A stretch of DNA of 64,000 nt from Deinococcales bacterium (lineage in GTDB: Bacteria; Deinococcota; Deinococci; Deinococcales; JAAFIG01), in contig JAAFIG010000005.1 of NCBI GenBank assembly GCA_013298595.1, positions 62,001-126,000 of the forward strand. Reading direction: 5' to 3'. Positions 1 through 64,000 of this stretch are shown one piece after another. The first letter of the stretch is position 1. Each line of letters begins with the position of its first letter. The notes under the pieces were generated by a model. That model was not told where the DNA came from. It made no database searches and saw nothing but the letters and a program-made list of their open reading frames with translations. Both the position numbers and the translations under genes were made by a program.

Positions 1-3000
1 AACTGTAACCAATTGGCACAGGATGACAAACATAGTACTCGCCTGTTCCGTTTTGGTCTGCATCAATGACGGTTTCAATGGCGTAATTGCCAGTGGGTAC
101 TGTGCTGTTAAACCTGAACTTGTAGCCTTGTTCAGGAACCCATTTCATGACTTGTCGTCCAGCAGTTGTATATGCTGTGGCAGCATTGTTGAGTTGAAGT
201 AATGCAATATAGGCTCGTCCTGCGTCTACAGTACCAGCACCTTGTCGGTAATATACAGGAGCAAAGGTATTTTGCGTGCCTGTACTGGCTTGGATACTCC
301 CAATGTAAGAACCATCAGCTAATCCTGTGCGATTGAGATTGACGTTAATGGTCACACTGCTATTGCCTGCGATGTTGCCTGTGGCACTACCCGAAACATC
401 ACCACTAATAAAGGCATTTGAACCACTGAGTGTGTATGTTCCAGCGGTACTCGAGAGGTTGCGTAAAGTCATTGTACCTGTGGTGGTGCTTGCTCCAAAA
501 TCTAATCCAGGGTTGGTGGTTGTTCCCGAAGCATTGTACTCGAGTTGTAAGAACGCACCAATTGGGTTGTTGCTTATAGCTGCTGCTATGGCAGCAACGG
601 CGTTGACTGCACCTGCTCCGCAACCACTATCGCAACCAGAACCAGCGGGAATGGGTGTCGCGGTGCTTTGTAAGTAAAAAGTGGCTTGTTGCAAATTGAG
701 TTTAGGTAAACTGTTGGCTACTCGAGCAGCGTTCATTAAGCCAATAATGCCAACAATGTGTGGTGTTGCCATGCTTGTTCCTTGGTATTCGGTGTAGCCC
801 CACGGGGCAGCTCCGCAACCTGTAGTTGGGTCAGGTGGTGTTTGTCCATTGGCATTGCAACCAAGGGTAGAAAGAACGCCATTAGGTGTTGTGGCACTGT
901 TAAAATCGCCACCAGGAGCAGCAATTTCTACAGCAGAACCATAATTGGAATAATAAGCGCGTTTTACGCCAGGTCCTAGAGCCGCCACAGTTAAAACATT
1001 GCGTTGACCCGCTGGAGCGTAACCATAAGCATTGTCGTTGTCGTTACCAGCTGCGACCACAAGGACTTTACCAGCGGTGTTGACATCATCGGCTGCGTCT
1101 TGGTATGCCTGATCTACTCCAGCTCCACCTAGGCTCATGTTGAGAATATCCGCAGGATTTGGATTGGTGATGCTTGTATTGCCTGAACCTGTATTAACAG
1201 TAACTGGTAAACCAGCTGCCCAACGCATGGCTCGAGTAATGTCGGAGGTGGAACCACCACTAGGTCCTAATACTCGGACTGCCATCATGCGGCTGCTCCA
1301 GTTAATGCCTGCAATACCAAGATTGTTGTTGCTACAAGCCCCGATTGTGCCTGCAACGTGGGTTCCATGCAAGCTGGTATCAGCGTATGGTCCAAGGTCG
1401 TAAGGGTCGTCATCATCGAAGGTGTTGGCTTCGACACTGCTGGCATAGGAAACAAAATCAAAGCCGGGTAACCATCTGTTGGTTGCACCAGAACCACAGT
1501 ATAAATCTTCGTGGGTGCTGGCTTCTTTGGTGTTATTCACGTCTAAACCAATGTAATCGGCTTTGTTATACAAAATGCCTGTGTCTAAAATAGCAACGAC
1601 TACACTCGAGTCGCCTGTGGTTATATCCCAAGCCGTTGGAATGTTTGCCATTGAGTAATGCCAAAAGTTATTGGGGGTATTAGCAGGAGATTGCACAGGG
1701 TACTTTGGGTCGTTAGGGGTTAGGGTGTGTTTGTATAAATAATTGGGTTGGGCGTATTCAACATCGGCTCGAGTTCGTAATTGTGCAATAAAATCAAGGG
1801 TTGATTGAGCATCTGGGGTTGAAGCCTGAATTGAAGCGATGCCAGCTCGGGGGGGTATACTCGAGCTAGTCACCAAACTGGTGTTCTCAAATAAAGGTTG
1901 TTGATTCAGCACCGATAATGGACGTAACACACCATCGAATGGCAAGGGTTTAAATTTCACAATGGCTTGTCCGATGACAAAACGGGCTTCTGTGGCAATG
2001 CCTAAACTTTGCGGGGTGTTGCTGGTAACATATGGTAAGTACATTGTTCCCGAAACAGAAGCAGAAGTGGTCGGTGTCACCATAAAAGTGGGTGCGCTCG
2101 AGGTTCTGATATTATCGGCTCGAATGGCAACACAACCCGTACAAGCCGTTGAAACCGTACCACCAGGACCACCACGCACAAAAATTTCTTTTGTGCCAGA
2201 ACCAGCAAACGCTGTGGCTCGAGCTGCCACATTGGTAAAGTTAGCCACACCTTCTTCGATACTGCGCGTAAAACGCATGGTTGGTTCGTCTGCCACTAAA
2301 AACGACATAAAGAAACGGTAAGGGTCTTCGGCAGCACTCGAGCCTTTAGGTACTCGAATAGCCAGTGTAATTTCACCGATGTCACCATTGGCAAAAACCC
2401 TTGTCCAAGTTGGTGTAGCTGTTGCACAATTAGCAGTGCAACGCCGTGCCACATACCCGTACTCGAGAATTTCATCGGTACTGCCAATAATTCCAGCAGC
2501 TCGAGCTTGTTGTTGTGCGGCGGCAGCTTCGGCAATCTGAAAAAACTGCATATCGGCTTTGTTCGGATTGACTGTGGTGCTGTTGGTCATGCCATGAATG
2601 GGTTTGACTTTTTGGGCAAAAGCAGGATTGGTAATTTCTGTGTTACCAAAGTTAAACACGCGATTTAAAGCTGTGCCACCAAGATTAGTGCTTCGACCAA
2701 TGGCATACAATGTGATGTTACTAAAAGCCCGATTGGCTTGAACAGTAAATGTTCCAGCAATATCAATACTTGTTCCATTATCAACATTGCTATAGGTGCT
2801 TGGTGGGGTCAAGGTGATTGAACCAACCGCGAAAACCGTAGCTGGACGCAACTGCCCACTGTCTTTGTTGTCGTTGAGACCAAGTGTCACTGTACTTATT
2901 TCACCAGATGAAGGCACGGAAATAGATACGGGCGTTGGGGTTTGAGTACATGCACCTAAAAGCCCTAAAACTAAAATAGAAACACTCAAAAAATGCTTAT

Positions 3001-3004
3001 TCAT
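1..3004 (-). CDS. S8 subtilisin-like serine peptidase, lipoprotein (C-terminus beyond window)
   Basis: The frame is open from the ATG at 3004 to the left edge, about 1001 residues, so the C-terminus is missing. Residues 1-19 are a lipoprotein signal with lipobox LLGAC. The stretch before the protease ends in a typical S8 prodomain motif (VEYAQPNY). The catalytic triad is present: Asp474 in AILDTGI, His546 in HGTHVAG and Ser744 in GTSMATPH. After about residue 800 comes a beta-rich BACON-like region. It should be an active, membrane-anchored or secreted endopeptidase; its substrate is unknown. The ATG overlaps the stop of the upstream 55-codon gene as ATGA, so the two are probably translated together. 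The family call is firm; any link to the peptide is inference. Confidence 0.93.
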   Translation of the reverse strand, partial: MNKHFLSVSILVLGLLGACTQTPTPVSISVPSSGEISTVTLGLNDNKDSGQLRPATVFAVGSITLTPPSTYSNVDNGTSIDIAGTFTVQANRAFSNITLYAIGRSTNLGGTALNRVFNFGNTEITNPAFAQKVKPIHGMTNSTTVNPNKADMQFFQIAEAAAAQQQARAAGIIGSTDEILEYGYVARRCTANCATATPTWTRVFANGDIGEITLAIRVPKGSSAAEDPYRFFMSFLVADEPTMRFTRSIEEGVANFTNVAARATAFAGSGTKEIFVRGGPGGTVSTACTGCVAIRADNIRTSSAPTFMVTPTTSASVSGTMYLPYVTSNTPQSLGIATEARFVIGQAIVKFKPLPFDGVLRPLSVLNQQPLFENTSLVTSSSIPPRAGIASIQASTPDAQSTLDFIAQLRTRADVEYAQPNYLYKHTLTPNDPKYPVQSPANTPNNFWHYSMANIPTAWDITTGDSSVVVAILDTGILYNKADYIGLDVNNTKEASTHEDLYCGSGATNRWLPGFDFVSYASSVEANTFDDDDPYDLGPYADTSLHGTHVAGTIGACSNNNLGIAGINWSSRMMAVRVLGPSGGSTSDITRAMRWAAGLPVTVNTGSGNTSITNPNPADILNMSLGGAGVDQAYQDAADDVNTAGKVLVVAAGNDNDNAYGYAPAGQRNVLTVAALGPGVKRAYYSNYGSAVEIAAPGGDFNSATTPNGVLSTLGCNANGQTPPDPTTGCGAAPWGYTEYQGTSMATPHIVGIIGLMNAARVANSLPKLNLQQATFYLQSTATPIPAGSGCDSGCGAGAVNAVAAIAAAISNNPIGAFLQLEYNASGTTTNPGLDFGASTTTGTMTLRNLSSTAGTYTLSGSNAFISGDVSGSATGNIAGNSSVTINVNLNRTGLADGSYIGSIQASTGTQNTFAPVYYRQGAGTVDAGRAYIALLQLNNAATAYTTAGRQVMKWVPEQGYKFRFNSTVPTGNYAIETVIDADQNGTGEYYVCHPVPIGYS

Positions 3005-3168
3005 TGAGCTTCACCGTCCATAAAATCTGTGGCTTGCTCGAGAAATCCATCGGGTATGAAATTATTAAACCCTGTGGATTCCCCTGTGACTAAACACCAG
3101 TGTTGATGCAATTCAAGATGAGGTATTTGGTATGCCTGACGTTTTTTTGGTTGCGTATCAGTAGTCAT
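3001..3168 (-). CDS. 55-residue peptide with lasso-type leader motif, coupled to the S8 peptidase
   Basis: This short gene has a strong ribosome site (GGAGG, 6 nt before ATG 3168) and its TGA overlaps the peptidase ATG. The peptide starts with a basic stretch (KKR at 8-10). It then shows Tyr13, Pro16, Leu18 and Thr28, matching the spacing of the YxxPxLxxxGxxxxxT leader motif of lasso and related RiPP precursors, with Gln22 in place of Gly. The part after Thr28-Gly29 is 26 residues with Phe, Asn and acidic residues and one Cys before it (Cys25). No Asp or Glu lies at core positions 7-9, so a classical lasso ring is unlikely. No RRE, B or C protein is visible. That it is translated is likely; precursor function is a hypothesis. 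Confidence 0.75.
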   Translation of the reverse strand: MTTDTQPKKRQAYQIPHLELHQHWCLVTGESTGFNNFIPDGFLEQATDFMDGEAQ

Positions 3169-3706: not shown

Positions 3707-3712
3707 AAAACA

Positions 3713-3718
3713 ATTGTA
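3713..3718 (-). promoter_or_regulatory. -10 box (TACAAT) for leaderless start at 3706
   Basis: The box ends 6 nt before the ATG and no ribosome site lies between them, which fits a leaderless transcript. Confidence 0.5.
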
Positions 3719-3789
3719 GCATGTAAATCACAACTCACCTGTTCTTTAGATGGGTCACAAATGCCTAGTCAAAAAGTAAGCTTCTGCAC

Positions 3790-4119
3790 ATGGCAAGACT
3801 TTCAGATATTGTTTCTCGAGGAAATAACCCTGTGTTTCCACCACAGGATGCTCGTTTGGGTTTGGTGGGCACATGGCGGGCATTATCTGGACAACAGGCA
3901 TGGACAGCTTTGGAAATCAGCCCTGATAGTAAAATACGCATTTTAATTGGGCAAAGCCAGTTAAATGGCACAGCCGATTTTTCCACAGATGGTGGCTTAG
4001 CATTACAAATTTATGCCGATAGTCGCACCGTGCCACTCGATGGGTATTGGATTTTGCATACCAATGAGTTACGGCTCGAGTTTAAGTCCATAGATATGAT
4101 GTTTGCTCGGATTAAATAA
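3790..4119 (+). CDS. Small beta-rich protein, unknown
   Basis: 109 residues with no signal peptide. The pattern LVGTWRAL followed by alternating hydrophobic strands (ALEIS, IRILIG, DFSTDGG, LALQIYA) looks like a small lipocalin-like or beta-barrel domain. A similar start occurs in the lipoprotein at 36932-37396 (LRGTWQSF). I do not recognise the family. TAAGCT at 3777-3782 ends 7 nt before the ATG, which supports the start. A hairpin at 4143-4174 follows it. Confidence 0.6.
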   Translation: MARLSDIVSRGNNPVFPPQDARLGLVGTWRALSGQQAWTALEISPDSKIRILIGQSQLNGTADFSTDGGLALQIYADSRTVPLDGYWILHTNELRLEFKSIDMMFARIK

Positions 4120-4142
4120 CAATTTTTTCATGTCCTCCTCTC

Positions 4143-4174
4143 AAGTGACCAGTTTTATTGGCTGGTCACTTTTG
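4143..4174 (+). terminator. Hairpin terminator between convergent genes
   Basis: AAGTGACCAG (4143-4152) pairs with CTGGTCACTT (4162-4171), giving a 10-bp stem with a 9-nt loop and a short T-run on the plus strand. The stop codon of the alaX gene (4166-4168) lies inside its right arm. Confidence 0.75.
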
Positions 4175-5320
4175 CGTGATACTCTGCTCAATTGCCTCGA
4201 GAGCAGCTTCTAAACCAAGTACTCGACTACCGCTGCCTTGGGCAAGATCTGATTTTCCACCACCTTTACCTTCGATCAGTGGTAAACCAATTTTTAATAA
4301 CTCACCAGCCTGTTGATTGGTTTTGCTACCACAAGTAATGGTGATAAAAGCTCGAGTGCCATCGGTTGCACCAAGAATGGCAACTAAGTTTTCGCGCAGA
4401 GCACAAACCTTGGCAAGGTCGCTTAGCAATTTGGCATCTTCGAGCATATGCACAACCACACCTTTGCTAAACCCAGCTGCGATTCGTGCGGCTAACTGCG
4501 TGCGTAATTGCGAGATTTCCAGCCGAGTTTGGTTTAATTCCTCGAGTACTGCGAATGTTCGTTCAGGTACTTTATCGATGCCACTCGAGTAACGCAAACC
4601 CAGAGCACTGATAAAATCGTGTTTGAAACGATAATCCTCCAGCACTCGAGCACCACAAATAAAATGTACTCGAGTAGCGCTGCCTTTGATTCGCTCGAGT
4701 TTAAGGATTTTTAAGATGCCAACTTCGCCAGAATTTTTGGTGTGCGTACCACCACAGGCACTGTAATCAAAATCACCAATTTGTACAACGCGGATCAAAC
4801 CCGTAACTTTTGGCGTTCTACGCAACGGAACACTGGCAATTTCTGTATCTGGTACTTCGTAGGTGCTGATTGGATACCCAGCCCATATTGCTTGATTAGC
4901 AAGGGTTTCTGCTTCGAGTGCCAATGTCCAATCGGTTTCTTGATCTAAATCTAAAGTACAAATATGGTGTTCCATATTAACTGCAATCACATAGCGCTTG
5001 AGGCGAAAAAAGGCTTGTCCAAGAATATGTTCCCCAGTGTGCTGCTGCATATGGTCAAAGCGGCGTTGCCAGTTTATTTGACCATCAACCCTCGAGCCAA
5101 CAGCAATCTCACCATCTAATACATGCCAAATTGCGCCTGCATTATCTTCCTTTGTTTCCAGTACAGGCAATTCATTAAGCACACCAATATCAAAAGGCTG
5201 CCCACCTGCTGTTGGATAAAACGCCGTTTGGTCTAAACGCACTGCGTTTTTGTCTACCTCGAGCACTGAAGCGCTAAAACTGGTTTGATACGCATCTTGA
5301 CGATAAAGTTTGGTGGTCAT
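4166..5320 (-). CDS. alaX: Alanyl-tRNA editing protein, AlaX-L type with DHHA1 domain
   Basis: 384 residues from ATG 5320. The N-terminal half matches the AlaRS second-additional/editing domain: the HxxxH zinc motif lies in HMQQHTGEHIL and the second zinc pair in CGGTHT. The C-terminal third has the DHHA1 signature GGGKSDLAQGSG. Such proteins hydrolyse Ser- or Gly-tRNA(Ala) in trans. It begins 18 nt after the tilS/tadA stop with no own ribosome site, so it is probably in the same transcript. That puts two tRNA fidelity functions together. A TTG 6 nt upstream is a possible alternative start. Confidence 0.92.
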   Translation of the reverse strand: MTTKLYRQDAYQTSFSASVLEVDKNAVRLDQTAFYPTAGGQPFDIGVLNELPVLETKEDNAGAIWHVLDGEIAVGSRVDGQINWQRRFDHMQQHTGEHILGQAFFRLKRYVIAVNMEHHICTLDLDQETDWTLALEAETLANQAIWAGYPISTYEVPDTEIASVPLRRTPKVTGLIRVVQIGDFDYSACGGTHTKNSGEVGILKILKLERIKGSATRVHFICGARVLEDYRFKHDFISALGLRYSSGIDKVPERTFAVLEELNQTRLEISQLRTQLAARIAAGFSKGVVVHMLEDAKLLSDLAKVCALRENLVAILGATDGTRAFITITCGSKTNQQAGELLKIGLPLIEGKGGGKSDLAQGSGSRVLGLEAALEAIEQSITQK

Positions 5321-5338
5321 CAGCAAATTATAAAACGA

Positions 5339-6964
5339 TTACGGAGTGGCTTTGCGTTTACTAGCAAAAAATTGGTTAAGTAACGCCACCGATTGTTTCT
5401 CGAGTACTCCTGTACGCACTGTAAAACTGTGGTTCCAATTGGCTCGAGTAGCATCTAAAACACTTCCCAGCGCACCATTTTTTGGATTACGAGCTGCAAA
5501 GACAATTCGGCTAATACGGGCTTCGATGGCAGCTCCAAGGCACATCAGGCAAGGCTCGAGCGTAACAACCAAGGTGCAATCGGTTAAGTATCCTGTGCCC
5601 AGCACCTGACTGGCATTGCGTAATACCTCGAGTTCGGCATGTCGAGTCATATCTTGATTGGCATACGAAACATTATGGGCTTGGGCAATAATCGTGCCAT
5701 TGTGCAAAATCACTGCACCCACTGGTACTTCGTTGAGGCTCGAGGCAAGTCTGGCTTGTTCAAGAGCGACTTTCATGGCATCAATTTCGGGGTCTTTGGG
5801 TTGAGGTAAACTGGCATCGAGTAAAGGCGGTTCGAGTCCGACATAAACAACTTTCTGCCCAAGTGCCAGCACCATGATGTTATCGCGGATTTCTCGAGGG
5901 ACTTTACGATCAATAAAAATATCCGAAAGCGAATTGCTGCCACCTACCAAATTGATCGTATCGCCTGGTGCTCGAGTACGAAGAATAGCATCTGGAAAGG
6001 CATTTTTGGTAATTTCTAAAGCTTGTGCACTTTCGGCTGAAACAGCCACAAAACCCGTCTCGAGCAGCGAAGAATAAACTTGCAGCATACCATCTTGTAC
6101 CACCCCAGCTTTGTTTTCGGGCAACGAAACCCTCGAGACTTTTGGTTGTTGCAATGCCTGACGTAGCGCTTCGATATGCTCAAAATCGGTTTGCACTCCA
6201 GCTTGCTCGAGGATTTTACGAATCACCCGCCGCTGAATCACACTGTGCTCAAGCCGCAAATCTGTCCAAGCGGGCACAGCTGATAATTCCTCGAGTAATA
6301 AATGCTCATCCCGAGCAATATCGGCATACCGAGCCAAGGCAATACTTGCCGTAGGGAAACGCTCGAGCAGCAACGGCATCACCTGCAAACGCACCCAGTT
6401 ACGAGTGAATTTTGTATTCGCATTGCTGCTATCCTCACGCCAGCTAAGCTGCTGAGCCAGCAAAAACTCTTCGAGCAACACCTTAGAAACATCCAATAGC
6501 GGACGCAACACCCGTCCGAAACGAGGCGGAATACCTGTTGCCTTCCCAGAACCCCGCAACAACTGCATCAATACTGTCTCAGCACAATCCTCGAGCGTAT
6601 GCGCCGTCAAAATAAACTGGCAACCCTGTGCTTTTGCCACTCGAGCCAAAAACTCGTACCGCACATTGCGAGCCGCTTCCTCGAGGCTCCAACCACGCTT
6701 CGTTGCAATACCCTGAACATCAATCCGCTCCGAGAAAAAAGATTTCCCCAGATCAAAAGCTGCCTGCTGCACAAACTCTGCGTCCAAGCCTGAATCCACC
6801 CGTAAACCATGATCCAGATGCGCCACAACCACATCCAAACTTTTAGCTAAATACAATAACGCCATCGAATCACGCCCACCTGATATAGCTAACAACAAAC
6901 GCGACCCTCGAGCCACCCCCAATTGCTCGAGGGCAGCATCAAATAAAGTCTCGAGCGATTGCAT
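5339..6964 (-). CDS. tilS/tadA: Fusion of tRNA(Ile)-lysidine synthetase and tRNA adenosine deaminase
   Basis: 541 residues. The first ~390 are TilS, which makes lysidine at C34 of tRNA-Ile; the PP-loop SGGRDS is at residues 28-33, followed by the Glu-rich AHTLEDCAE motif. The last ~150 are TadA, which converts A34 to inosine in tRNA-Arg, with zinc/catalytic motif HAE and EPCLMC. I recall the same two-enzyme fusion from Deinococcus. I start at ATG 6964 because TATACT (6971-6976) ends 6 nt upstream; a reading frame continues 25 codons further upstream but has no homology. Both enzymes modify position 34, so fusion makes sense. Confidence 0.95.
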   Translation of the reverse strand: MQSLETLFDAALEQLGVARGSRLLLAISGGRDSMALLYLAKSLDVVVAHLDHGLRVDSGLDAEFVQQAAFDLGKSFFSERIDVQGIATKRGWSLEEAARNVRYEFLARVAKAQGCQFILTAHTLEDCAETVLMQLLRGSGKATGIPPRFGRVLRPLLDVSKVLLEEFLLAQQLSWREDSSNANTKFTRNWVRLQVMPLLLERFPTASIALARYADIARDEHLLLEELSAVPAWTDLRLEHSVIQRRVIRKILEQAGVQTDFEHIEALRQALQQPKVSRVSLPENKAGVVQDGMLQVYSSLLETGFVAVSAESAQALEITKNAFPDAILRTRAPGDTINLVGGSNSLSDIFIDRKVPREIRDNIMVLALGQKVVYVGLEPPLLDASLPQPKDPEIDAMKVALEQARLASSLNEVPVGAVILHNGTIIAQAHNVSYANQDMTRHAELEVLRNASQVLGTGYLTDCTLVVTLEPCLMCLGAAIEARISRIVFAARNPKNGALGSVLDATRANWNHSFTVRTGVLEKQSVALLNQFFASKRKATP

Positions 6965-6970
6965 ACGTTC

Positions 6971-6976
6971 AGTATA
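6971..6976 (-). promoter_or_regulatory. -10 box (TATACT) for leaderless tilS/tadA start
   Basis: TATACT ends 6 nt before ATG 6964, with no Shine-Dalgarno between them. This decides the start codon. Confidence 0.6.
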
Positions 6977-7067
6977 AGGTGAAAGGCAGGCACAGCGAAA
7001 ACAGGTGAACTTGGGTGGGGTTGTGGAAACGTGGTGCAACTCTCACCCGACTCGCTTAGGCTCGTCA

Positions 7068-9339: not shown

Positions 9340-9416
9340 CTCGAGAGAAGTGAAACCCACCCCAGTTTTCGGGGTGGGTTCTTGACATTAAGTGGTTTTG
9401 GACAGAGCGGCTCGAG
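9340..9416 (-). terminator. Terminator-like element, copy 1 of a repeated ~80-bp unit
   Basis: AACCCACCCC (9354-9363) pairs with GGGGTGGGTT (9371-9380) over a 7-nt loop, just downstream of the RCC1 lipoprotein gene. The whole unit is bounded by CTCGAG on both sides and is clearly similar to 11863-11944. Confidence 0.75.
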
Positions 9417-9425
9417 AAAACGCTT

Positions 9426-11726
9426 TTAGGGTAGGCGAATGGTGAAAGTGCCTAACAGCACAGATACAGGTGTTGGAGTGCTAAAACCAGTCGTGCCGTT
9501 TCCAATTTGTCCTCTATTATTTCCACCCCAACTCAATAGTGTTCCATCGGATTTTAGGGCAAGTGAATGAATAGAACCTGCCGCAATTGCAACGATATTA
9601 TTTGCGTTACTAACAGGGACTGGTGTGGGTTTACTCGCACTTGCGGTATCATCACCAAGTTCTCCGAAGAAGTCACTGCCCCAACTAAGTAAAGTGCCAT
9701 CTGATTTCAATGCAAGAGAAAAATTGCCACTTGCTGCAATTGCGACAATACTATTTGCCCCTCTTACAGTAACTGGTGTGGGTTTATTCGCTATTGTGGC
9801 ATCATCACCAAGTTTTCCTTCCGTATCACTTCCCCAACTGAGCAATGTGCCATCAGATTTTATAGCAAGAGAAAAATCGCTACCTGCTGCGATAGAGATA
9901 ACATCGCTTGCACCACTAACAGGAACTGGTGTGGGTTTGTTTGCGATTGTAGAGTCATCTCCGAGTTGTCCATTGGTATCTTGTCCCCAACTGAGCAATG
10001 TGCCATCAGATTTTAACGCGAGTGCAAAAAGACCGCCTGCTGCGATTGCGATAATGTTATTCGCTCCACTGACAGCAACTGGTGTGGGTTTGTTTGCGAT
10101 TGTAGAGTCATCTCCGAGTTGTCCAATGATATCCGATCCCCAACTGAGCAGTGTGCCATTTGATTTTAGCGCAAAAGAAGTATTACCACCCGCTGCGATT
10201 GCGATAATATTGTTTGCGGTGCTTACACTGACAGGTGTGTGTTTATCTGCGGGTGCTGTATCGTCTCCCAGTTGCCCATCGTTATCCCTTCCCCAACTGA
10301 GGAGAGTGCCATCGGATTGCAAAGCCAGTGAATGAGTGTAACCTGCTGCGATTGCTACAATGTTTTTTGTATCACTGATAGCAACTGGTGTGGATTTATT
10401 TACGAGTGGTTCATCATCTCCAAGTTGTCCATTGCTATCTTCTCCCCAACTGAGGAGAGTGCCATCAGATTTTATAGCAAGAGAATGACCAGTGCCTCCA
10501 GCAATACTGGCTTTCATCGGGTTGACACTAACAAAAATAGTACTTTTCTGACTCAAGTCTTGAACACTAGTAGCAGTAATCCTCACAACTCGTCCAAAAC
10601 TCGAGGGAGGAGCTTGGTAGAACACGGTATTACCAGTTGAACTCGAGAGTTTCCCAACACCACCATTTTCGATTGCCCAAGTGACTGAGTTACTAAATGC
10701 ACCTGTTCCTGCTACTGAGGCGAATAAAGTGGAACTTTCGGTTTCGCGCATTGCTACTCGAGAAGCTGAAACACTGACTGCTGTGATACTCGAGGCGGGA
10801 GGTACAACTGCGTTAATGTTGATGGTGACATCACCTGATTTGCTTGGGTCTTGAATACTTGTAGCTCGAATTATTGTTGAACTCGAGGTTGTCAGGCTTG
10901 GCGCTGTAAAGGTAGTTGTTGCACCCGTCGCCGCTGAGATTGTTCCACTACCACTAACAATGCTCCAGATTACACCTGTACCAATAGAACCTGTACCAGT
11001 AACGGTTGCTGCAATACTGGTTGTTGCTGTTGCATTCAAAGGCGTACTAGGAGTTGTAGTTAAACTCACATTGGTGACACTCGAACCTGCTGCTACTGGG
11101 TTGTTGGTGATTGTGATAACACCTGATTTACTCGAGTCTTGGACACTGGTCGCACGAATGATCGTTGTACTCGAGGTTGTTAAACTTGGAGCGGTGAAAG
11201 TGACTGGTGAACCTGTAACAGTCGAAAGTGTTCCAGAACCACTAACAATGCTCCAATTAACTGCGAGACTGAACCCATTTGTGCCTGTCACTGTGGAAGT
11301 AAGAACTGCTGGACTGGCTGCGTTAACAGTTGCGAAGTCTGAAGTGACAGTCACTGCTGTAACACTCGAGTTGACTGCAACGGGAATAACTTCGATGATA
11401 ATCTGCTCTGATTTACTGGTATCGGCTGTACTTTTAGCAGTTAAGGTGACATTGGTGTTTGTTGTCACGGTTGGTGCTTTGAAACGAACTGAACTGCCTG
11501 TGGTTTTAGATAGTGTTCCATTACTGGCTGTCCAAGTGACTCCTTTGTCATAGGCTCCTGTTCCGCTAACTTCAGCAAAAACAAATTGACTTGCCCCACT
11601 GCTGATACTCGAGTCTGATGTGATGCTGATCCCTGTGATGGTTGGTGCTGGAATGGTTTGTCCTCCACAAGCACTGAGTATTGCGGCGAGAGTGAATGTA
11701 ACAATTGACCATACTATTTTTTTCAT
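9426..11726 (-). CDS. Lipoprotein with four Ig-like repeats and a seven-repeat RCC1 propeller
   Basis: 766 residues from ATG 11726. The lipobox LSAC is near residue 20. Four Ig-like (BIG-type) repeats of about 95 residues fill residues 25-400; each has a VTWxxxxGxxSxxTG-like core. Then seven RCC1 repeats of about 51 residues follow, each with LALKSDGTLLSWG and GQLGDD-like motifs, enough for one complete seven-blade propeller. It is a surface-exposed binding protein of unknown ligand. The propeller part (9430-10600) contains no CTCGAG, while the Ig part has many. The blades are near-identical, suggesting recent repeat expansion. Confidence 0.85.
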   Translation of the reverse strand: MKKIVWSIVTFTLAAILSACGGQTIPAPTITGISITSDSSISSGASQFVFAEVSGTGAYDKGVTWTASNGTLSKTTGSSVRFKAPTVTTNTNVTLTAKSTADTSKSEQIIIEVIPVAVNSSVTAVTVTSDFATVNAASPAVLTSTVTGTNGFSLAVNWSIVSGSGTLSTVTGSPVTFTAPSLTTSSTTIIRATSVQDSSKSGVITITNNPVAAGSSVTNVSLTTTPSTPLNATATTSIAATVTGTGSIGTGVIWSIVSGSGTISAATGATTTFTAPSLTTSSSTIIRATSIQDPSKSGDVTININAVVPPASSITAVSVSASRVAMRETESSTLFASVAGTGAFSNSVTWAIENGGVGKLSSSTGNTVFYQAPPSSFGRVVRITATSVQDLSQKSTIFVSVNPMKASIAGGTGHSLAIKSDGTLLSWGEDSNGQLGDDEPLVNKSTPVAISDTKNIVAIAAGYTHSLALQSDGTLLSWGRDNDGQLGDDTAPADKHTPVSVSTANNIIAIAAGGNTSFALKSNGTLLSWGSDIIGQLGDDSTIANKPTPVAVSGANNIIAIAAGGLFALALKSDGTLLSWGQDTNGQLGDDSTIANKPTPVPVSGASDVISIAAGSDFSLAIKSDGTLLSWGSDTEGKLGDDATIANKPTPVTVRGANSIVAIAASGNFSLALKSDGTLLSWGSDFFGELGDDTASASKPTPVPVSNANNIVAIAAGSIHSLALKSDGTLLSWGGNNRGQIGNGTTGFSTPTPVSVLLGTFTIRLP

Positions 11727-16600: not shown

Positions 16601-17606
16601 GAAAATGCTTGGTTTTACATATTCAATCAAAGCGACATCCTCAAAAATAACAGCCCATCCTGATGATCTTGCTTTACTCTCAAGTGAAGATGGTTTTTTG
16701 CGCCAAGGGCAAAGCCGAATGTATCGTTACCGTGCAAAACGCCAAGATAACACGTATGTGCTGATCGAATGTAGCAGTTATCCACGGATGGAACAAAATC
16801 AGTATGCAGGGGCTATTTGTGTGCTGCGCGATATCAGCGCGGTACAACAGCAACAACGTCAACACGAAATTGCTGCCAACATTGCCGATACTGTGATTCA
16901 AGGTTTAGCGGTGCTGAATGCCCAAGGGAAATTTGAATTTATCAACCCTGCACTTGCTCGGTTGTTGCATTGTGACGCAGAACAATTACTAGGCACTGAT
17001 TTCCTGAGCATTGTTCACCCAGAAGAACGTAATCAACTCGAGCAACTTGGTTACCAAAGTGCTCATTCTTTGTACAGCCGATTAGAAACACCAAACCACA
17101 ACGAAATCCGAGTTGAAATCAGTTACTACCCACGCCATAATGCCGACCAATACGATGGTGCGGTGCTGGTCATTACCAATTTATCGGATAATATTGCTCG
17201 AGAACTTGAGGTCATGCGGGCTTCGCAAGCTATTTTAACCACCGAAAATGAGCTAAAAATCCAGCAACAAAAAACCACACTCATTGCTGAACTGATCGAA
17301 CAAGGCATTGCTGTTTTTGATGCCAATGGTTTACTCGAGTATGTTAACCCAAGTTATGTGCAGATGCTTGGTTATACCGATGCTTACGAATTACTTGGAC
17401 GTGACGAAGCGCAGCTTATTCCGTCCAATCAGCAGACAATTCTTGATCAGCAATTCTCAATGCGGCGCAATAATCAGCGTGGTACTTATCAAATCACCAT
17501 GAACCAAGCTGATGGTAGCCCAATCAAAGTTGAAGTACGCGGCTACCCACGATTTGTCAATCAACAATTTCTTGGTTCGGTTTCAGTCATGAACCGCGTT
17601 AAATGA
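13683..17606 (+). CDS. GAF plus nine tandem PAS domains, no output domain
   Basis: 1307 residues from ATG 13683 (a GTG 27 nt upstream is in frame but lacks a ribosome site). An N-terminal GAF domain (about 35-175) is followed by nine PAS domains of about 110 residues, joined by short Gln-rich helices. PAS1 and PAS5-PAS9 keep the classical core (FExxNPAxxxxxGY-like, then GYPR strands); PAS2-PAS4 are more divergent PAS_4 types. The stop codon follows the last PAS strand directly. No kinase, GGDEF, HTH or methyl-accepting domain is seen, and the next gene converges 3 nt away, so no remnant remains. It is cytoplasmic. It may scaffold or sense for a separate effector. Confidence 0.85.
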   Translation: MMANRVRIQQSKPVQGQTLLPRASVLVQYEAVRSMAAETLLEAARLLTLAFQGQAAAVCWAASNSVRLVCTHGLGVDSLARSMPKDLTWFVPTEARFSTDQAVIHNVEVFLGTSGFATLISLPLRSYNQEVIGSILVLAQDTRAAGSTDFSLLSGIAHLAMDSINARILSRLTATSNVALQKAVPTQLEQAVAQARESIICFSPNGEILSWNAGAEETYGYNQQEILGHSIEALIPSSEMTFWLDAIEQLRVRKVVPPREVMRMHKSGFRVQVRSSMQAIRDERGEVTGILELSGVPTDPARAAMIERFRHLVEHLPMLFVQMDASGGLTFIEGQVLQHFRRSQLDLLGTNIRELFADDAQALAAMNEALQGKSVHQTLPFREHLYETWIVPVMVRGRFAGCNILAVDVSEKMQTQNQLLQTEQNLQTIINQLPLLMLRTNSQGQVDFIGGGALNAWQEAGWMPDGQSSPDSLADFSSAPEALSAIEDALQGKEVNALIDWQGRYFDAFFRPLDPNMVGTGTIAVGLDITEREKTQRQLLSVSQRVEQLLDAVPMLAVSVDSQGRLTLLEGKGVVHFGGEDVANQLLGVSVLDVLPKDQALQAVVERALAGEAFSSEIKFLDISVRIFVNPILEQGVFVGTSAIAIDITDAVQSEQQKQQAIAELVDAQSSLAQQQAFAQSILETIEQGVTVTAADGTFEYVSAVFAAMIGYNPQDLMGIDPIYLIPENERDTLVQQRRERSEGWLSTYRHRIIRQDGSIGTVEVTGYPRKNARGELLGGSIAVVRDISIEAEHTAEIAAVQAKLEQQRQFADKVASTITQGFITIDAQGLVEYANQAIADMLGCRIEDMIGINPIDYVPIEQREAVKIEWRPLVKGQICTYRHGLLSFNQQIVREVEMTVYPTLDADQRFQSAVLLINDITEQQALEVAANQARRAMERESRNALLIANSTSDGLLFMNANHEIEYANPALLKMLGFTYSIKATSSKITAHPDDLALLSSEDGFLRQGQSRMYRYRAKRQDNTYVLIECSSYPRMEQNQYAGAICVLRDISAVQQQQRQHEIAANIADTVIQGLAVLNAQGKFEFINPALARLLHCDAEQLLGTDFLSIVHPEERNQLEQLGYQSAHSLYSRLETPNHNEIRVEISYYPRHNADQYDGAVLVITNLSDNIARELEVMRASQAILTTENELKIQQQKTTLIAELIEQGIAVFDANGLLEYVNPSYVQMLGYTDAYELLGRDEAQLIPSNQQTILDQQFSMRRNNQRGTYQITMNQADGSPIKVEVRGYPRFVNQQFLGSVSVMNRVK

Positions 17607-17608
17607 AT

Positions 17609-18349
17609 TTAATGCGCGTACAAACCACCATCCACAGCAATGGTTTGCCCATTGACATAAGCCGCACCATCTGAAACTAAAAAGGCAATAACCGCAGCCA
17701 CATCTTCTGGTTTACCAAAACGCCCTGCCGGGATTCCCTCGAGGTACTTGGTTTTGAGGGCTTCGGGTAGCTTTTCGGTCATGTCTGATTCAATAAAACC
17801 CGGTGCAATAGCATTACAAGTGATGCCTTTACCACCGTATTCCTTAGCGATGGCTTTGGTTAAACCAATTAAACCAGCTTTGGCAGCAATATAATTGGCT
17901 TGCCCAGGGTTGCCCATTAAACCAACCACACTCGAGACATTAACAATCCGCCCCCATTTAGCATTTAACATTCCACGAATGGCGGCTCGAATCAGGGCAA
18001 AAGGCGCAGATAAATTGGTATCTATAACTGCGTCCCAGTCTTCATCTTTCATTCGCATAACCAATCCATCTTTGGTAATACCTGCGTTATTGACCAACAC
18101 TTCGATACCACCAAGAGCTTCGTTAGCAGCAACTGCTACAGCTTTTGCGCCCTCGAGACTGGATAAATCGCCTTGTACCAGCACAGCTTGTCCACCACTG
18201 GCACGAATCAGCGTGGCGATTTCTTCGGCTTCGGCACTCGAGCGACCATAATGCACAGCGATGGTATGCCCCAATTTACCTAACTCGAGGGCAATGGCTC
18301 GTCCAAGACCGCGTGAAGCACCAGTGACTAAGATTTTACGTTGTATCAT
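17609..18349 (-). CDS. fabG: 3-oxoacyl-[acyl-carrier-protein] reductase
   Basis: 246 residues, the standard FabG length. It has the NADPH motif TGASRGLGRA, the NNAG motif, catalytic Ser (NVSSVVG), YxxxK (YIAAK) and the C-terminal FabG block GQTIAVDGG. It reduces 3-oxoacyl-ACP in fatty acid elongation. It is not next to fabD (36015) or other fab genes, unlike many bacteria. TAGAAT (18357-18362) ends 7 nt before the ATG. The neighbouring PAS gene converges on its 3' end. Confidence 0.92.
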   Translation of the reverse strand: MIQRKILVTGASRGLGRAIALELGKLGHTIAVHYGRSSAEAEEIATLIRASGGQAVLVQGDLSSLEGAKAVAVAANEALGGIEVLVNNAGITKDGLVMRMKDEDWDAVIDTNLSAPFALIRAAIRGMLNAKWGRIVNVSSVVGLMGNPGQANYIAAKAGLIGLTKAIAKEYGGKGITCNAIAPGFIESDMTEKLPEALKTKYLEGIPAGRFGKPEDVAAVIAFLVSDGAAYVNGQTIAVDGGLYAH

Positions 18350-18356
18350 AAAACCG

Positions 18357-18362
18357 ATTCTA
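18357..18362 (-). promoter_or_regulatory. -10 box (TAGAAT) for leaderless fabG
   Basis: It ends 7 nt before ATG 18349. The divergent gene at 18430 has its own box at 18418-18423. Confidence 0.55.
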
Positions 18363-18417
18363 CCGTGAAATGGAGCAATGCTTGCAAATTTTTATCTCGA
18401 GCAGCAACGCACTGCGT

Positions 18418-18423
18418 TAGAAT
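18418..18423 (+). promoter_or_regulatory. -10 box (TAGAAT) for leaderless start at 18430
   Basis: It ends 6 nt before the ATG, with no Shine-Dalgarno. Confidence 0.55.
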
Positions 18424-18429
18424 AGCTTC

Positions 18430-19125
18430 ATGAACCCACCCGAGGCTCGAGATGCTACTTTGCAACGAATTACGCAGCGTCTCGAGAAAGGTTTTGCGGC
18501 GCACGGTAAAACGTGGCTTGAACGAATTGACAGTATCGAAAAGAAGATTCCTGCTGGTTTGGTGTTGCAATTGCGTGAATTACCGCATTTACAAGCCGAA
18601 GCTTTTACCAAAAGTGCTGCTTTAACTTTTGAACAATTAGAATTGTTATCTCAACGTCTCGAGCCAGAAGTATCTGATGTTTGGACTGAAGCCCAACGCA
18701 ACGAAGCTCGAGCTAAACCCGAAGTAAACGTTCAGCGCTCCAGAAACACGCCACGCCCCAATGTTGCCTCGAGATTAGCTTGGTGGTTACATGACACTCG
18801 AACGGGCATTCCCAAACGGGCTTATGCGCTTAGTCGGCGTTGGCGTATCTCAGTTACGCTGTTGTTTGCTGTTTTAGGGGCAGTTATAGGTTGGCTGACG
18901 TTTGGGCTTGGTGCAGCTGCGATGATGGCAGCCATTGCAGCTATGTTTGCTTGGTTGATGTGGTCAGAAAACAGCTTAGCTCGAGGTATGTGGTTACAAA
19001 CTCGAGTGGTTGAATGGGGTTTCGCATTTTTCCGAGGCAGTCTTTTGGTTATGGGTATATTGCTCTTGTTGATTGTGGCTTCGGTCACAGCTTGGCTGAT
19101 TGCACGATACTGGAATACTCGTTAG
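18430..19125 (+). CDS. Membrane protein with cytoplasmic helical domain, unknown
   Basis: 231 residues. The first ~140 are polar and helical, then three hydrophobic segments follow: about residues 139-157, 160-178 and 197-221. Basic residues (RRWR) just before the first segment predict a cytoplasmic N-terminus. I do not recognise the family. It is monocistronic and diverges from fabG. Confidence 0.65.
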   Translation: MNPPEARDATLQRITQRLEKGFAAHGKTWLERIDSIEKKIPAGLVLQLRELPHLQAEAFTKSAALTFEQLELLSQRLEPEVSDVWTEAQRNEARAKPEVNVQRSRNTPRPNVASRLAWWLHDTRTGIPKRAYALSRRWRISVTLLFAVLGAVIGWLTFGLGAAAMMAAIAAMFAWLMWSENSLARGMWLQTRVVEWGFAFFRGSLLVMGILLLLIVASVTAWLIARYWNTR

Positions 19126-19225
19126 GCACGCATTTTAATTTTGTATAAGGGCTAGTCATCGGGCATTTGCAGCATGACCCGCAATGTAATTAGGTGTCTC
19201 GTGGTAACTTATTCCATATTATTTT

Positions 19226-19277
19226 CTCGGAACGGGAGCGTTTCCAAAGCCTAACCGAGTTTCCCAAAGGGGGATAC
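19226..19277 (+). promoter_or_regulatory. Possible structured leader of the alpha-oxoamine synthase gene
   Basis: CTCGG (19226-19230) can pair with CCGAG (19255-19259). A second small hairpin pairs CCC with the GGG of the ribosome site AAAGGGGG just before ATG 19278. It might modulate translation; the evidence is weak. Confidence 0.3.
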
Positions 19278-20495
19278 ATGACACAAACAATGACAAAAGT
19301 AGTGGATGCCTTTGAAAAAGCACGCAAATATGATCGGGCTGATGATGCCATCGCTCAAGGTTTATACCCCTACTTTAAAGAAATTCAAAAACATGGTGGC
19401 GGCAGTGTCATCGTAGATAACGAAGAATATGTTTTAACAGGCAGCAACGATTACCTTGGTTTAACCCAAGATGCCCGTATCCGAGAAGCCAGCAAAAACG
19501 CCATAGACTTATATGGCACAACTTGCACAGGCTCGAGGTTCTTAACGGGTACACTGGAAATCCATGCCACCTTAGAGCACGAGTTAGCCCAATTTCTGGG
19601 CAAAGAAGCCACATTGGTTTTTGGGGCTGGTTTTTTAGCTTGTGCGACCAGTGTGGTTGCTTTGTCGGCACGTCACGATTTGGTCTATTTTGATCGTGAA
19701 AACCATGCCAGTTTATACGATGGTGCTCGGCTCAGTTGGGCTTGGGATAATCTGCGCCGCTTCAAACACAACGATGCCGCTGATCTCGAGCGACTGCTGA
19801 AAGCCGATGAAGGCAAACCGGGTGGGCGCTTAGTTTACACTGAAGGCGTTTTTAGCATGTCAGGGCATATTGGCACAGTAGATGAAGTCGCGGCTGTTGC
19901 AAAAAAATATGGTGCTCGAGTAATTTGCGATGATGCCCATGCCACAGGGGTGCTTGGACCTCGAGGTGAGGGTGCTCATGTGCATTTTGGTATTGAAGAT
20001 CAAGTGGATGTGGTAGTTGGCACTTTTTCTAAATCCTTTGCTTCAGTGGGCGGGTTCATTGCTGGTGACCGTGGGATTATTGATTTTATTAAACACACAG
20101 GTCGCCCATTTATTTTCAATGCTGCCTTGCCAGCCCCAAGTGTCGCAGCGGCACTCGAGGCTTTAAGAATTATGCGTTCGGAATCGCATCACCGCGAGAA
20201 CATGTGGAAAAACGTTAATTTTATGCGTTCTAATTTGCTCAATCTTGGTTTTGATTTACTGGGCAGTAACAGCCCAATTATTCCTGTTATGGCAGGCGAT
20301 CAAGATGCCGCTATTCGTTTCTGGCGTGGTTTATGGGATGCAAAAATTTTCACTACCCCAAGTTTGCCCCCCGCTGTGACCAAAGACCAGTGCATTATTC
20401 GCACCAGTTACAATGGTGCACACACCCAAGAACAACTCGAGAAAGCTTTGTACGCTTTTGAACATGTTGGTAAAGCCCTACAAATTATTCGTTAA
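19278..20495 (+). CDS. Alpha-oxoamine synthase (serine palmitoyltransferase / KBL-like)
   Basis: 405 residues from ATG 19278, which has the ribosome site AAAGGGGG. Family landmarks are GSNDYLGL, the glycine-rich GTTCTGSRFLTGT, the PLP Asp-His motif DDAHATGV and the Schiff-base Lys in GTFSKSFASVGGF. That Lys loop is closer to serine palmitoyltransferase and its relatives than to 8-amino-7-oxononanoate synthase or glycine C-acetyltransferase. The enzyme condenses an amino acid with an acyl-CoA. No biotin or threonine genes are nearby. The facing SDR gene could reduce a keto product, but that is inference. Confidence 0.85.
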   Translation: MTQTMTKVVDAFEKARKYDRADDAIAQGLYPYFKEIQKHGGGSVIVDNEEYVLTGSNDYLGLTQDARIREASKNAIDLYGTTCTGSRFLTGTLEIHATLEHELAQFLGKEATLVFGAGFLACATSVVALSARHDLVYFDRENHASLYDGARLSWAWDNLRRFKHNDAADLERLLKADEGKPGGRLVYTEGVFSMSGHIGTVDEVAAVAKKYGARVICDDAHATGVLGPRGEGAHVHFGIEDQVDVVVGTFSKSFASVGGFIAGDRGIIDFIKHTGRPFIFNAALPAPSVAAALEALRIMRSESHHRENMWKNVNFMRSNLLNLGFDLLGSNSPIIPVMAGDQDAAIRFWRGLWDAKIFTTPSLPPAVTKDQCIIRTSYNGAHTQEQLEKALYAFEHVGKALQIIR

Positions 20496-20503
20496 GTTGC
20501 ACC

Positions 20504-20539
20504 AAAAAAGAACGAGCACCTTGACGCTCGTTCTTTTTT
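20504..20539. terminator. Strong bidirectional terminator
   Basis: A perfect 14-bp stem (AAAAAAGAACGAGC with its complement, 8-nt loop) lies between the convergent alpha-oxoamine synthase and SDR genes, with a T-run on either strand. Confidence 0.95.
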
Positions 20540-20544
20540 AAAGC

Positions 20545-21249
20545 TTATTTTTTAGCTGGTTGACTCGGACGAACCTCGACTCGAGAGGGCAGTGTTCGGG
20601 TTGGCATTGCCAGTAAATCGAGAATGATTTGGGCAATATCTTCTGGTTGGATTTTCCAGGCATCGGCTTCGGAAGGTGTGTGGTTATTAAAGTACGTTGC
20701 CACGCTTCCAGGCATGATTTGGGTGACTTTAATACCAAGGGCACGCAAATCAAGCATCATGGCTTCGGATAAACCATTTAACCCAAATTTACTAGCATTA
20801 TAGGCACTGGCACCAGCAAACGCATTTTTACCTGCTAAACTCGAGATGGTAAAAATATAGCCTTGGGTTTTTTGTAAAGCAGCAATGGTGGCTTTGACAG
20901 TGTAAAACACCCCTGTTAAATTGGTATCCACAACGCTGCTCCAGTCTTCGAGACTGAGTTCTTGGATGGGTTTGAAAATACCAACGCCTGCATTAGCAAC
21001 GACACAGTTTAACCCACCAAATTCGGTATTTGCTGCTAGGACAGCACTCTCGAGGCTGTCGTAATCTCGAGTGTCGGATATGACACCAATAGCTTTGCCG
21101 CCACCGAGAGCATTGAGGTTTTGGACGGCTTGTTGTAATTCGCCTGCGTTGCGAGCAGTAATAACAACATTCCAATGATTTTCTATCATAGCAACGGCGG
21201 TTGCGTAACCGATTCCTTTGCTGCCACCTGTAATTAAGGCTGTTTGCAT
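20545..21249 (-). CDS. Short-chain dehydrogenase/reductase
   Basis: 234 residues, classical SDR. It has TGGSKGIG (cofactor), NAGVG, a Ser strand (ISSLAG) and YxxxK (YNASK). The substrate is unknown. It resembles ketoreductases acting on acyl or keto intermediates, and it faces the alpha-oxoamine synthase gene tail to tail. TACAAT (21256-21261) ends 6 nt before the ATG. Confidence 0.88.
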   Translation of the reverse strand: MQTALITGGSKGIGYATAVAMIENHWNVVITARNAGELQQAVQNLNALGGGKAIGVISDTRDYDSLESAVLAANTEFGGLNCVVANAGVGIFKPIQELSLEDWSSVVDTNLTGVFYTVKATIAALQKTQGYIFTISSLAGKNAFAGASAYNASKFGLNGLSEAMMLDLRALGIKVTQIMPGSVATYFNNHTPSEADAWKIQPEDIAQIILDLLAMPTRTLPSRVEVRPSQPAKK

Positions 21250-34248: not shown

Positions 34249-35715
34249 ATGCGATTAGCATTGTTCAATCGTTATACATTAGGTTTAAGTTTACTTGCGT
34301 TAACCATATTGAATGCTTGTAACTCATCACAGGTTGGCGATATCGCTATGACTGATACACCAGCTAAACGCCTTGTATCAAACATTGCAAATCCAAATAA
34401 TTTGCTAGCAGCCACTTGGTCATTTGGTAACTGGAGTGCTCGAGTTGCCAATACCAGAAGTGTGCCCACGTCAGAAGATAGTGATGGCTTCTTGGATAGT
34501 CTTACTGCATCAACATATGGTTGGACGGGAACTCAATTCACAGTTGGTGTTGGCGATGTGGTTAACTCGAGTGTTTATATGGCAGTACCAGTTGGTTCAC
34601 CTTCAATTACAGTACGAGTGGCTATTCAGAATACCAGTGGCACAGAATTTGCAGGAGCTGGAGTCGGTGGATTGAATGGTCAACTTTTTACAATTACCAG
34701 TACACCACAAAGATACGCACCACCAGCCTGGACTTCGACAGCGACTGGAACGGTACAACTCGCAATTACAGGAGTCAATCCAGGAAAAACGATCCAACTT
34801 GGCGGTGTACGAGTTTTTGGGAGTGCAACATTTAGCCAAGAAGTGCTTTTCTTTGATTTTAATACTCGTCAGTACCGAGTCAATGCTGGCGCTAATCAAA
34901 ACTTACCCAGTGATGAACCGTTGGTTCCCACTTCAGTTGGAGCGAATTCAGGTGGACGGGCTTGGGGTCCACTGTACATTCAAGGCACAAATGCCATTGA
35001 AAGTGCCAAGATTATTACTGCACCTTGGAATTCAAGTGTTAAAGCATTGCGTGCTCGAGTCCAAGGAGGCTCTAATTGGAATGGTACAAATTATCCGCGT
35101 ACTGATGTGATTTTTGAAGGTAATGTACTTACAGTAAAAAATGCTTCTTATTTGCAACGTGGGGTTGAATATAGACTTGAAACAACTTGGTATTTTCAAG
35201 GAAAAGTGAACCTACCCAATGAAGCCACTATTGGTTGGCAACTTCATCAAGGATTAGCTTGTGGAGTTAATCCGATTGGTACGGTGTTTCAAGGCACAAC
35301 CATTCAATATCGCAGAGTACCAAGTCCATTTCCAACTGTGGTCAACAATTGTAATAATGTACCCACTTACACAAATACGCAATGGGGTAACTGGGGGGCA
35401 CTTGAGTGGCGTAAACCATTTATTAACGCAATTGCAGCTAATACTTTGTATACAGTACGATTTGAATTTAAATTAGGCGGTTCAGGAACTGGTTACTTGA
35501 AAATGTTTTTGAACAATGCACAATTACCAGATAGTTACGTTGGTGACGTTGGCTATTACCTCGATACGCCCGCAGGTTTTGATGATACTCACATCTTAAA
35601 AATGCTAACCAATTACCATTTTGGTAATGCTAACGCTGGGAGTACCACGTTGAATAATGGTGAACAACTGGATTTATGGGTCGGACCAACTTGGACTTTG
35701 TCAAGGAAACCGTAG
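34249..35715 (+). CDS. Lipoprotein, probable carbohydrate-binding / polysaccharide-lyase-like
   Basis: 488 residues from ATG 34249, which has AAAGGA 6 nt upstream. The lipobox is LNAC. Residues about 40-190 look like a carbohydrate-binding beta-sandwich (WSFGNWSARVANT and FTVGVGDVV). The C-terminal half resembles concanavalin-like polysaccharide lyases: RGVEYRLETTWYF, then TVRFEFKLGGSGTGYLKMFLNN and a late GYYLD. Secreted glycan binding or cleavage is likely, but catalytic residues cannot be assigned. Codon and CTCGAG content differ from neighbours (only three sites). Confidence 0.6.
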   Translation: MRLALFNRYTLGLSLLALTILNACNSSQVGDIAMTDTPAKRLVSNIANPNNLLAATWSFGNWSARVANTRSVPTSEDSDGFLDSLTASTYGWTGTQFTVGVGDVVNSSVYMAVPVGSPSITVRVAIQNTSGTEFAGAGVGGLNGQLFTITSTPQRYAPPAWTSTATGTVQLAITGVNPGKTIQLGGVRVFGSATFSQEVLFFDFNTRQYRVNAGANQNLPSDEPLVPTSVGANSGGRAWGPLYIQGTNAIESAKIITAPWNSSVKALRARVQGGSNWNGTNYPRTDVIFEGNVLTVKNASYLQRGVEYRLETTWYFQGKVNLPNEATIGWQLHQGLACGVNPIGTVFQGTTIQYRRVPSPFPTVVNNCNNVPTYTNTQWGNWGALEWRKPFINAIAANTLYTVRFEFKLGGSGTGYLKMFLNNAQLPDSYVGDVGYYLDTPAGFDDTHILKMLTNYHFGNANAGSTTLNNGEQLDLWVGPTWTLSRKP

Positions 35716-35784
35716 CAAAGTTCGTTGCTCAATGATGATTTTGATGTTGAAGTGTCTAATATCATACTAAAGTGCTTGAAAAAC

Positions 35785-35855
35785 ATCGTTTCGGACTTTG
35801 TTAAGTCTAATTTTGCCCGCTTTTGGTCAAATAGAGCATACAAAGCCGAAACGAT
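35785..35855. repeat. 71-bp palindromic element with 15/16-bp arms
   Basis: ATCGTTTCGGACTTTG (35785-35800) is mirrored by CAAAGCCGAAACGAT (35841-35855), with a single bulged base and a 40-nt centre. No T-run follows it on either strand. It may be a small non-autonomous element, a structured RNA or an operator. Confidence 0.6.
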
Positions 35856-36001
35856 ATAACTGTTTTTATAACAGCTTAGTTATGTGTTTATTGCACCTCA
35901 TTGTTTTACAATATGGTCAACCCCATTATAAGTATAAGAATCACATAGTAGAAGTCAATATTTGTGAACTCGAGCTAAGCAATGTTGAAGCTAGAAGCTG
36001 T

Positions 36002-63657: not shown

Positions 63658-63661
63658 GGCT

Positions 63662-64000
63662 TTATACAGTCACTGCCGCAAAGGCTTTGGCGTGTAAACC
63701 AACCCACGTTTCAAGGCTAGTTAATTGAACAGGCAATTGCTCGAGAACTGCCACCATGTTTGTATTCATGGCATCATCAGATTGAGCATTTGAGTGGGTA
63801 TATCCAGCCCGAATGGCTTCGCCTGCTTCTGCACCCATAATTTTGGTCATGGTGGCTGCAAATGCTTCTGGGCTGATGGCTTGGTAAGTTATGGGACGGT
63901 TTAAGCCTTTGGTAAATGCCTTGGCAATGGCTGCTCCGTCCAAGGCTTCTGGTCCACCTAATGCAAAGCGCTGACCAGCCAAAGCAGGACGTGTCAGTGC
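63662..64000 (-). CDS. NmrA-like / NAD(P)-binding protein, C-terminal part
   Basis: The frame is open past the right edge; the visible 112 residues are the C-terminus. The pattern GQRFALGGPEALDGAAIAKAF then a late SLETWVGLHAKAF fits the C-terminal part of NmrA/HSCARG-type NAD(P)-binding proteins. The Rossmann motif is outside the window. It converges on ackA. Confidence 0.65.
   Translation of the reverse strand, partial: ALTRPALAGQRFALGGPEALDGAAIAKAFTKGLNRPITYQAISPEAFAATMTKIMGAEAGEAIRAGYTHSNAQSDDAMNTNMVAVLEQLPVQLTSLETWVGLHAKAFAAVTV

Follow-up and report, generated by a model that had tools for sequence, protein, structure and literature searches.

CTCGAG as a highly iterated palindrome distinct from HIP1 in a clade of Deinococcota

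CTCGAG qualifies, in the broad sense, as a highly iterated palindrome (HIP) of a clade of uncultured Deinococcota related to Thermus and Truepera; it is a genome-wide outlier that neither codon nor amino-acid usage explains. The excess consists of exact copies, is independent of reading phase, is conserved between species, extends to the encoded proteins and is distributed over a clade of related genomes, and its sites are occupied independently of one another beyond about 36 bp and exclude each other below about 18 bp. The cause tentatively preferred here, as a possibility that falls somewhat short of a likelihood, is an enzyme with the specificity of restriction/modification systems through which sites accumulate one by one by biased repair.

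The window, the whole stretch of 64,000 nucleotides that was analysed, contains 396 copies at a mean spacing of about 160 bp (exact count). Its genome carries 27,159 in 4.58 Mb, which amounts to 5.9 per kb or about one per 170 bases; the reversed word GAGCTC occurs 15 times in the same genome. The sequence-only reading of the window, which had put the number at several hundred, was right about the over-representation and understated its size, and its hand counts of 12, 27 and about 22 correspond to exact counts of 12 (positions 1-3,000), 27 (4,100-7,000) and 23 (17,600-21,100). The features of the window, none assigned to a strand, are as follows.
1..64000: 396 copies of CTCGAG, intergenic as well as in every reading phase
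4100..7000: dense stretch with 27 copies (exact count)
17600..21100: dense stretch with 23 copies (exact count)
9411..10600: longest CTCGAG-free gap of the window, 1.19 kb, within a 770-aa minus-strand ORF
35054..35969: CTCGAG-free gap of 0.9 kb with 38% G+C

Base composition predicts 12.8 copies in the window, an order-1 Markov model 6.1 and an order-2 model 29.2. The maximum-order (order-4) model expects about 335 copies (671 against 792 observed when both strands are counted). It does not serve as a null, since its training 5-mers, CTCGA and TCGAG, almost always lie within CTCGAG. Among palindromes the motif stands apart, with an observed to expected ratio (O/E) of 28.7 in genome G000 of the window's family, where the runner-up reaches 2.25, and of 19-30 in the six strongly enriched genomes (G000-G003, G012 and G016), where the runner-up is at most 3.5. 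The HIP1 core CGATCG has an O/E of only 0.09 in G000. The description of CTCGAG as a HIP1-like palindrome with a different sequence is supported.

The copies in the window are divided over reading phases 0, 1 and 2 as 199, 94 and 73, with 30 outside ORFs, which agrees with the suggestion that the motif occurs in all frames and between genes. The further suggestion of a place in terminator stems is weak: in positions 1-20,000 about 3 of 28 terminator-like hairpins carry the motif core and such hairpins are in no clear excess (28 against 23.1 +/- 4.6), and terminator stems are therefore no special home for CTCGAG. Synonymous-codon shuffles of the window ORFs yield 30.2 +/- 5.0 copies, with a maximum of 47 in 300 shuffles, against 367 observed.

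The fold excess compares the occupancy of protein-permitted places with what codon use outside the motif predicts. For phases 0/1/2 it amounts to 35/15/30 in G000, 29/19/25 in G001, 7/35/13 in G002, 13/23/19 in G003, 31/28/21 in G012 and 11/48/25 in G016, 3.7/7.6/5.4 in G008 and 0.5/0.7/0 in G004. Outside the clade, where some samples comprise only 20-40 kb, it is 3.7/12/3.5 in the Meiothermus-type genome G025, 19/12/15 in G104 (Trueperaceae), 1.7/4.3/2.4 in the Truepera-type G009 and 0.7/0/2 in the Thermus-type G007. Occupancy of the permitted sites of G000 is 0.64/0.63/0.37, where codon use predicts 0.018/0.042/0.012. Intergenic density equals coding density (5.1 per kb in G000 and 5-9 per kb across the strong genomes).

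The pressure for CTCGAG has changed both the codons and the amino-acid order of proteins. Of the Leu-Glu dipeptides of G000, 64% are encoded as CTC GAG, and Leu-Glu is 2.5 times as frequent as expected, with Glu-Leu at 1.0; the six strong genomes range from 2.3 to 2.6 for Leu-Glu against 0.85 to 1.2 for Glu-Leu. The Leu-Glu dipeptides of G000 that are not spelled CTC GAG number 339, close to the random expectation of 379 for all Leu-Glu, and the excess is therefore the motif. AT-rich genes (below 36% G+C; 9 in G000 and 4 in G001), which were probably acquired recently, show an occupancy of 0.11 and a Leu-Glu O/E of at most 1.0. An island of 3.5 kb in G000 (L036:6590-10148, 33% G+C) has no copy at all. 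It encodes a HEPN protein, a GmrSD_N protein and a beta methyltransferase (C66), and is probably a defence island of recent acquisition. CTCGAG thus seems to enter genes after their arrival, and the excess of Leu-Glu without one of Glu-Leu, together with its absence from AT-rich genes, indicates that the motif shaped the proteins. Extrapolation from an excess of about 585 in 222 kb would give some 12,000 extra Leu-Glu per genome, by order of magnitude. The initial exclusion of codon preference as the cause is upheld, and that of dipeptide usage requires qualification: Leu-Glu does "explain" some of the count, with causation reversed. A DNA word that reshapes a proteome is a warning for codon and dipeptide controls, since a shuffle that keeps dipeptides would hide part of an effect in which the motif itself raises Leu-Glu.

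Counts over 111 genomes of the class place the strong enrichment in six, namely the window's family (f1; four genomes in three genera, 26,600-28,200 copies per genome) and one genus of a second family (f2, genus g11; 21,868 and 14,690); elsewhere in f2, g8 has 13,552 copies and g4 has 683. Enrichment is weaker in the Meiothermus-type genome and some Trueperaceae, and absent from the Thermus-type genome and the sister genome G004. A contig named Trueperaceae (L144) is 100% identical to G093, by which family f3 is Trueperaceae and the order falls within Deinococcota. G025 may be close to Meiothermus ruber, G009 to Truepera radiovictrix, G006 to Marinithermus hydrothermalis and G061 to Meiothermus silvanus. 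G104 (48% G+C; L410) has CTCGAG at 12 times expectation and a strong codon-controlled excess, with an intergenic density of only 0.54 per kb and a Leu-Glu excess of only 1.3-fold, and is perhaps a younger or weaker case. A scan of a genome collection for clustered CTCGAG listed mostly GC-rich genomes, with the Deinococcota clade possibly not among the matches listed; haloarchaeal loci, a biased sample because they were chosen for clustered CTCGAG, are dense in it mainly through CTC GAG codons.

CTCGAG is over-represented as an exact word. Its flanks carry at most 0.025 bits per position, and in 222 kb of G000 the one-mismatch hexamers total 628 against 1,250 perfect copies, a class that is not enriched and lies at or below background, with transversions lowest (CTAGAG 0.09, CACGAG 0.30). 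Such an all-or-none landscape is typical of restriction/modification enzymes. In the comparison of G000 with G001 (37 gene pairs, 74% nucleotide identity), the partner has a perfect copy at 65% of sites, compared to 22% for control hexamers of equal G+C, and a one-mismatch partner is found at 5% of sites against 34% for the controls; at the 65% identity of G000 and G003 the perfect fraction is 48% against 11%. Where both species have Leu-Glu, occupancy shows a moderate correlation (odds ratio 3.6, p = 0.0008), so single sites come and go at a steady overall level.

After removal of mutually overlapping permitted sites, the odds ratio for both members of a pair being occupied is 0.25 at 6-12 bp, 0.48 at 12-18 bp and 0.86 at 18-36 bp, and about 1 or slightly higher beyond 36 bp. 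A negative interaction over 50-75 bp in nearest-neighbour bins was partly an artefact of the overlapping sites, without which it shrank to below about 36 bp. The lack of saturation at longer range is evidence against one site serving a stretch of DNA, and of the roles suggested initially the range-limited ones (uptake, the spacing of mismatch-repair marks) lose ground because occupancy is independent of other sites beyond about 36 bp. Either a protein footprint or the avoidance of hairpins formed by two palindromes could account for the exclusion at short range. The effect peaks at 6-12 bp and is already seen at 6-9 bp, too close for a hairpin with a full stem, which weakly favours the footprint.

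It is proposed that the pressure would act on the DNA itself wherever CTCGAG can arise, and that it would keep the exact word in about one third to four fifths of the places where the protein allows it. A putative enzyme of restriction/modification-type specificity, be it a methyltransferase, a repair endonuclease or both, would favour CTCGAG when paired with or competing against a one-mismatch form, and biased repair would then let sites accumulate one by one, either as a by-product or with a secondary function in marking self DNA. Such a drive is favoured by the outlying O/E of 19-30, flanks almost devoid of information, the scarcity of one-mismatch forms, orthologous conservation, an occupancy far above codon use, the Leu-Glu excess, the low motif content of AT-rich genes and the lack of saturation at distance. 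Against it count the failure to find a shared methyltransferase among five Pfam families in four genomes of the window's family, the lack of a decisive sign of 5-methylcytosine decay, with TTCGAG about as common as CTTGAG, and the fact that simple additive selection for binding sites would produce an almost identical pattern. That a site-by-site drive, by sequence-specific repair or by an unrecognised modification enzyme outside the tested families, rewrote a whole bacterial clade is a more doubtful proposition; if true, such a drive would have left each genome with some 27,000 identical palindromes and, extrapolating from the sample, with extra Leu-Glu of the order of 12,000.

The conserved CTCGAG methyltransferase that the sequence-only reading expected was not found in the five Pfam families searched. 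No methyltransferase of PF00145, PF01555, PF07669, PF02384 or PF02086 is common to the four genomes of the window's family, and the hypothesis of a conserved one, including a conserved orphan, is rejected for these families, whose matches are not orthologous across the family. This negative covers assembled DNA, five Pfam families and orthologous enzymes; PF05063 (MT-A70), for which the control searches gave no matches, stands outside it. G000 encodes six candidate DNA methyltransferases with putative specificities, none of which has, among the matches compared, orthologues in each of G001, G002 and G003.
C15: C5 type, sharing about 58% identity with an enzyme that is annotated next to an HpaII-family endonuclease
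C34: beta type, with 67% identity to enzymes from plasmids, of which one is annotated RsrI
C66 (L036:6590-10148): beta type, inside the motif-free island
C11 (L083:399-2823): gamma type, adjoining a gene with a strong match (350 bits) to the type II restriction enzyme PDLC03405
C9: DrmMI/type IIG-like
C2: weak D12-family match
TTCGAG (149) and CTTGAG (150) are equally common in the G000 sample, and only a weak tilt from C3 to T is seen among codon pairs for Leu-Glu and among orthologues (22 against 9, p = 0.03). Vsr-type conversion of T:G only is ruled out, as CTTGAG is not depleted.

The best surviving alternative, which we regard as rather unlikely, is additive selection for sites bound by an abundant protein of the nucleoid or of chromosome organisation, with a small fitness gain per site. 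It would account for site-autonomous occupancy, for exclusion below 18 bp as the footprint of a protein predicts, and for the even spread and intergenic copies, and an enrichment of about 30-fold would correspond to a scaled selection of about 3.4. However, a full loss of advantage at one mismatch and the absence of flank preference are unusual for nucleoid proteins, selection would be required at each of some 27,000 sites, and the spacing gave no signal of helical periodicity.

Two further explanations are improbable, and to a similar degree. In the first, CTCGAG would be a DNA uptake sequence, spread by transformation as a molecular drive in competent cells that take up DNA carrying it. The uptake sequences of Neisseriaceae and Pasteurellaceae (DUS/USS) are likewise dense genome-wide motifs able to spread as a drive, and uptake motifs also affect proteomes; DUS/USS are several times less dense than CTCGAG is here, and CTCGAG differs in being palindromic and 6 bp long. 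The absence of CTCGAG from AT-rich, probably foreign genes is compatible with uptake, and uptake sequences are the known instance of motifs that spread over whole genomes by transformation (PMC1939737, PMC2397512). The benefit of uptake should however saturate at one site per fragment, whereas sites occur about every 170 bp with no negative interaction beyond 36 bp, and the exact palindrome has no extended flanks.

In the second, methylation-directed mismatch repair, which Elhai proposed for HIPs, would operate through CTCGAG methyltransferases that are not the same from genome to genome. The pattern is of the same class as that of cyanobacterial HIPs, and the cyanobacterial genomes with highly over-represented sequences all had a putative matching methyltransferase, according to the excerpted text of Elhai (2015, PMC4390886). 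CTCGAG methylation itself exists in Nocardia and Halorubrum (PMC4752239, PMC8112702). Opposed to this are the lack of a methyltransferase of the five Pfam families common to the window's family, a predicted density of about 1 per kb that is exceeded sixfold, and a predicted saturation that is not seen. The last alternative, an artefact of codon, dipeptide or base composition, can be dismissed: phase 0 (Leu-Glu, CTC GAG) is the most frequent and codon preference gives much of the count in GC-rich genomes and the selected haloarchaeal loci, but the excess over codon use in G000 is 15- to 35-fold in every phase, CTCGAG is as dense between genes as within them, Leu-Glu is in excess and Glu-Leu is not, and the synonymous shuffles of the window fall far short of the observed count.

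Like HIP1 (GCGATCGC), CTCGAG is a short palindrome found genome-wide, within and between genes, at a level unique within its genome. It differs in sequence, in phylum, in length (6 nt compared to 8), in density (about 6 per kb compared to about 0.5-2.5), in that no matching methyltransferase was found and in that its one-mismatch forms are not in excess. The reason for the existence of HIP1 has long been open, in part because HIP1 was thought to be a cyanobacterial peculiarity. CTCGAG provides an independent and denser HIP-like case in another phylum; its gradient from strong (the clade) through weak (the Meiothermus-type genome) to none (the Thermus-type genome and G004) allows comparison to be used in looking for the cause, which relatives that can be cultured make testable.

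The excerpted text of Elhai (2015, PMC4390886) gives about 500-2,500 copies per million bases for HIP1 and the alternate HIPs of cyanobacteria, reports a putative methyltransferase alongside each HIP and proposes mismatch repair directed by GmeC. The alternate HIPs in that text are GGCGCC, rCCGGy, GCsGC, GGGATCCC and TCGATCGA, and CTCGAG is not named among them. They resemble it as over-represented short palindromes in the place of HIP1; the exceptional ones are sporadic there and have a putative methyltransferase, whereas CTCGAG is common to a family and a further genus. CTCGAG is the recognition sequence of an orphan methyltransferase of Nocardia, where it clusters beside dnaA (Blow 2016, PMC4752239) rather than covering the whole genome as here, and is a 5-methylcytosine motif in Halorubrum (PMC8112702). 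The initial impression that the motif is undescribed in a HIP-like role stands in so far as no paper found describes CTCGAG in such a role or links it with HIP1 and cyanobacteria; as a methylation motif it was already known. The kind is therefore known, and the variant is new to the literature searched in its sequence, phylum, density and protein effect and in that no shared methyltransferase was found.

Several viral contigs in IMG/VR (L241, L218, L269, L320 and L327-L329) carry CTCGAG at 16-43 times expectation in all phases, three being also rich in GAGCTC and the remainder in GTCGAC; none of these contigs is attributable to phages of the Deinococcota clade. Most other 6-nt palindromes are strongly avoided in the six strong genomes (median O/E 0.11-0.24), with medians of 0.7-0.9 in G008 and G004; this avoidance coincides with strong CTCGAG enrichment, and the Thermus-type sample is also low (0.22). 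In G000, GGCC stands at 0.01 of expectation, CTAG at 0.28 and CCGG at 0.11, and the avoidance of CCGG is in line with the resemblance of the predicted methyltransferase C15 to an enzyme adjacent to an HpaII-family endonuclease.
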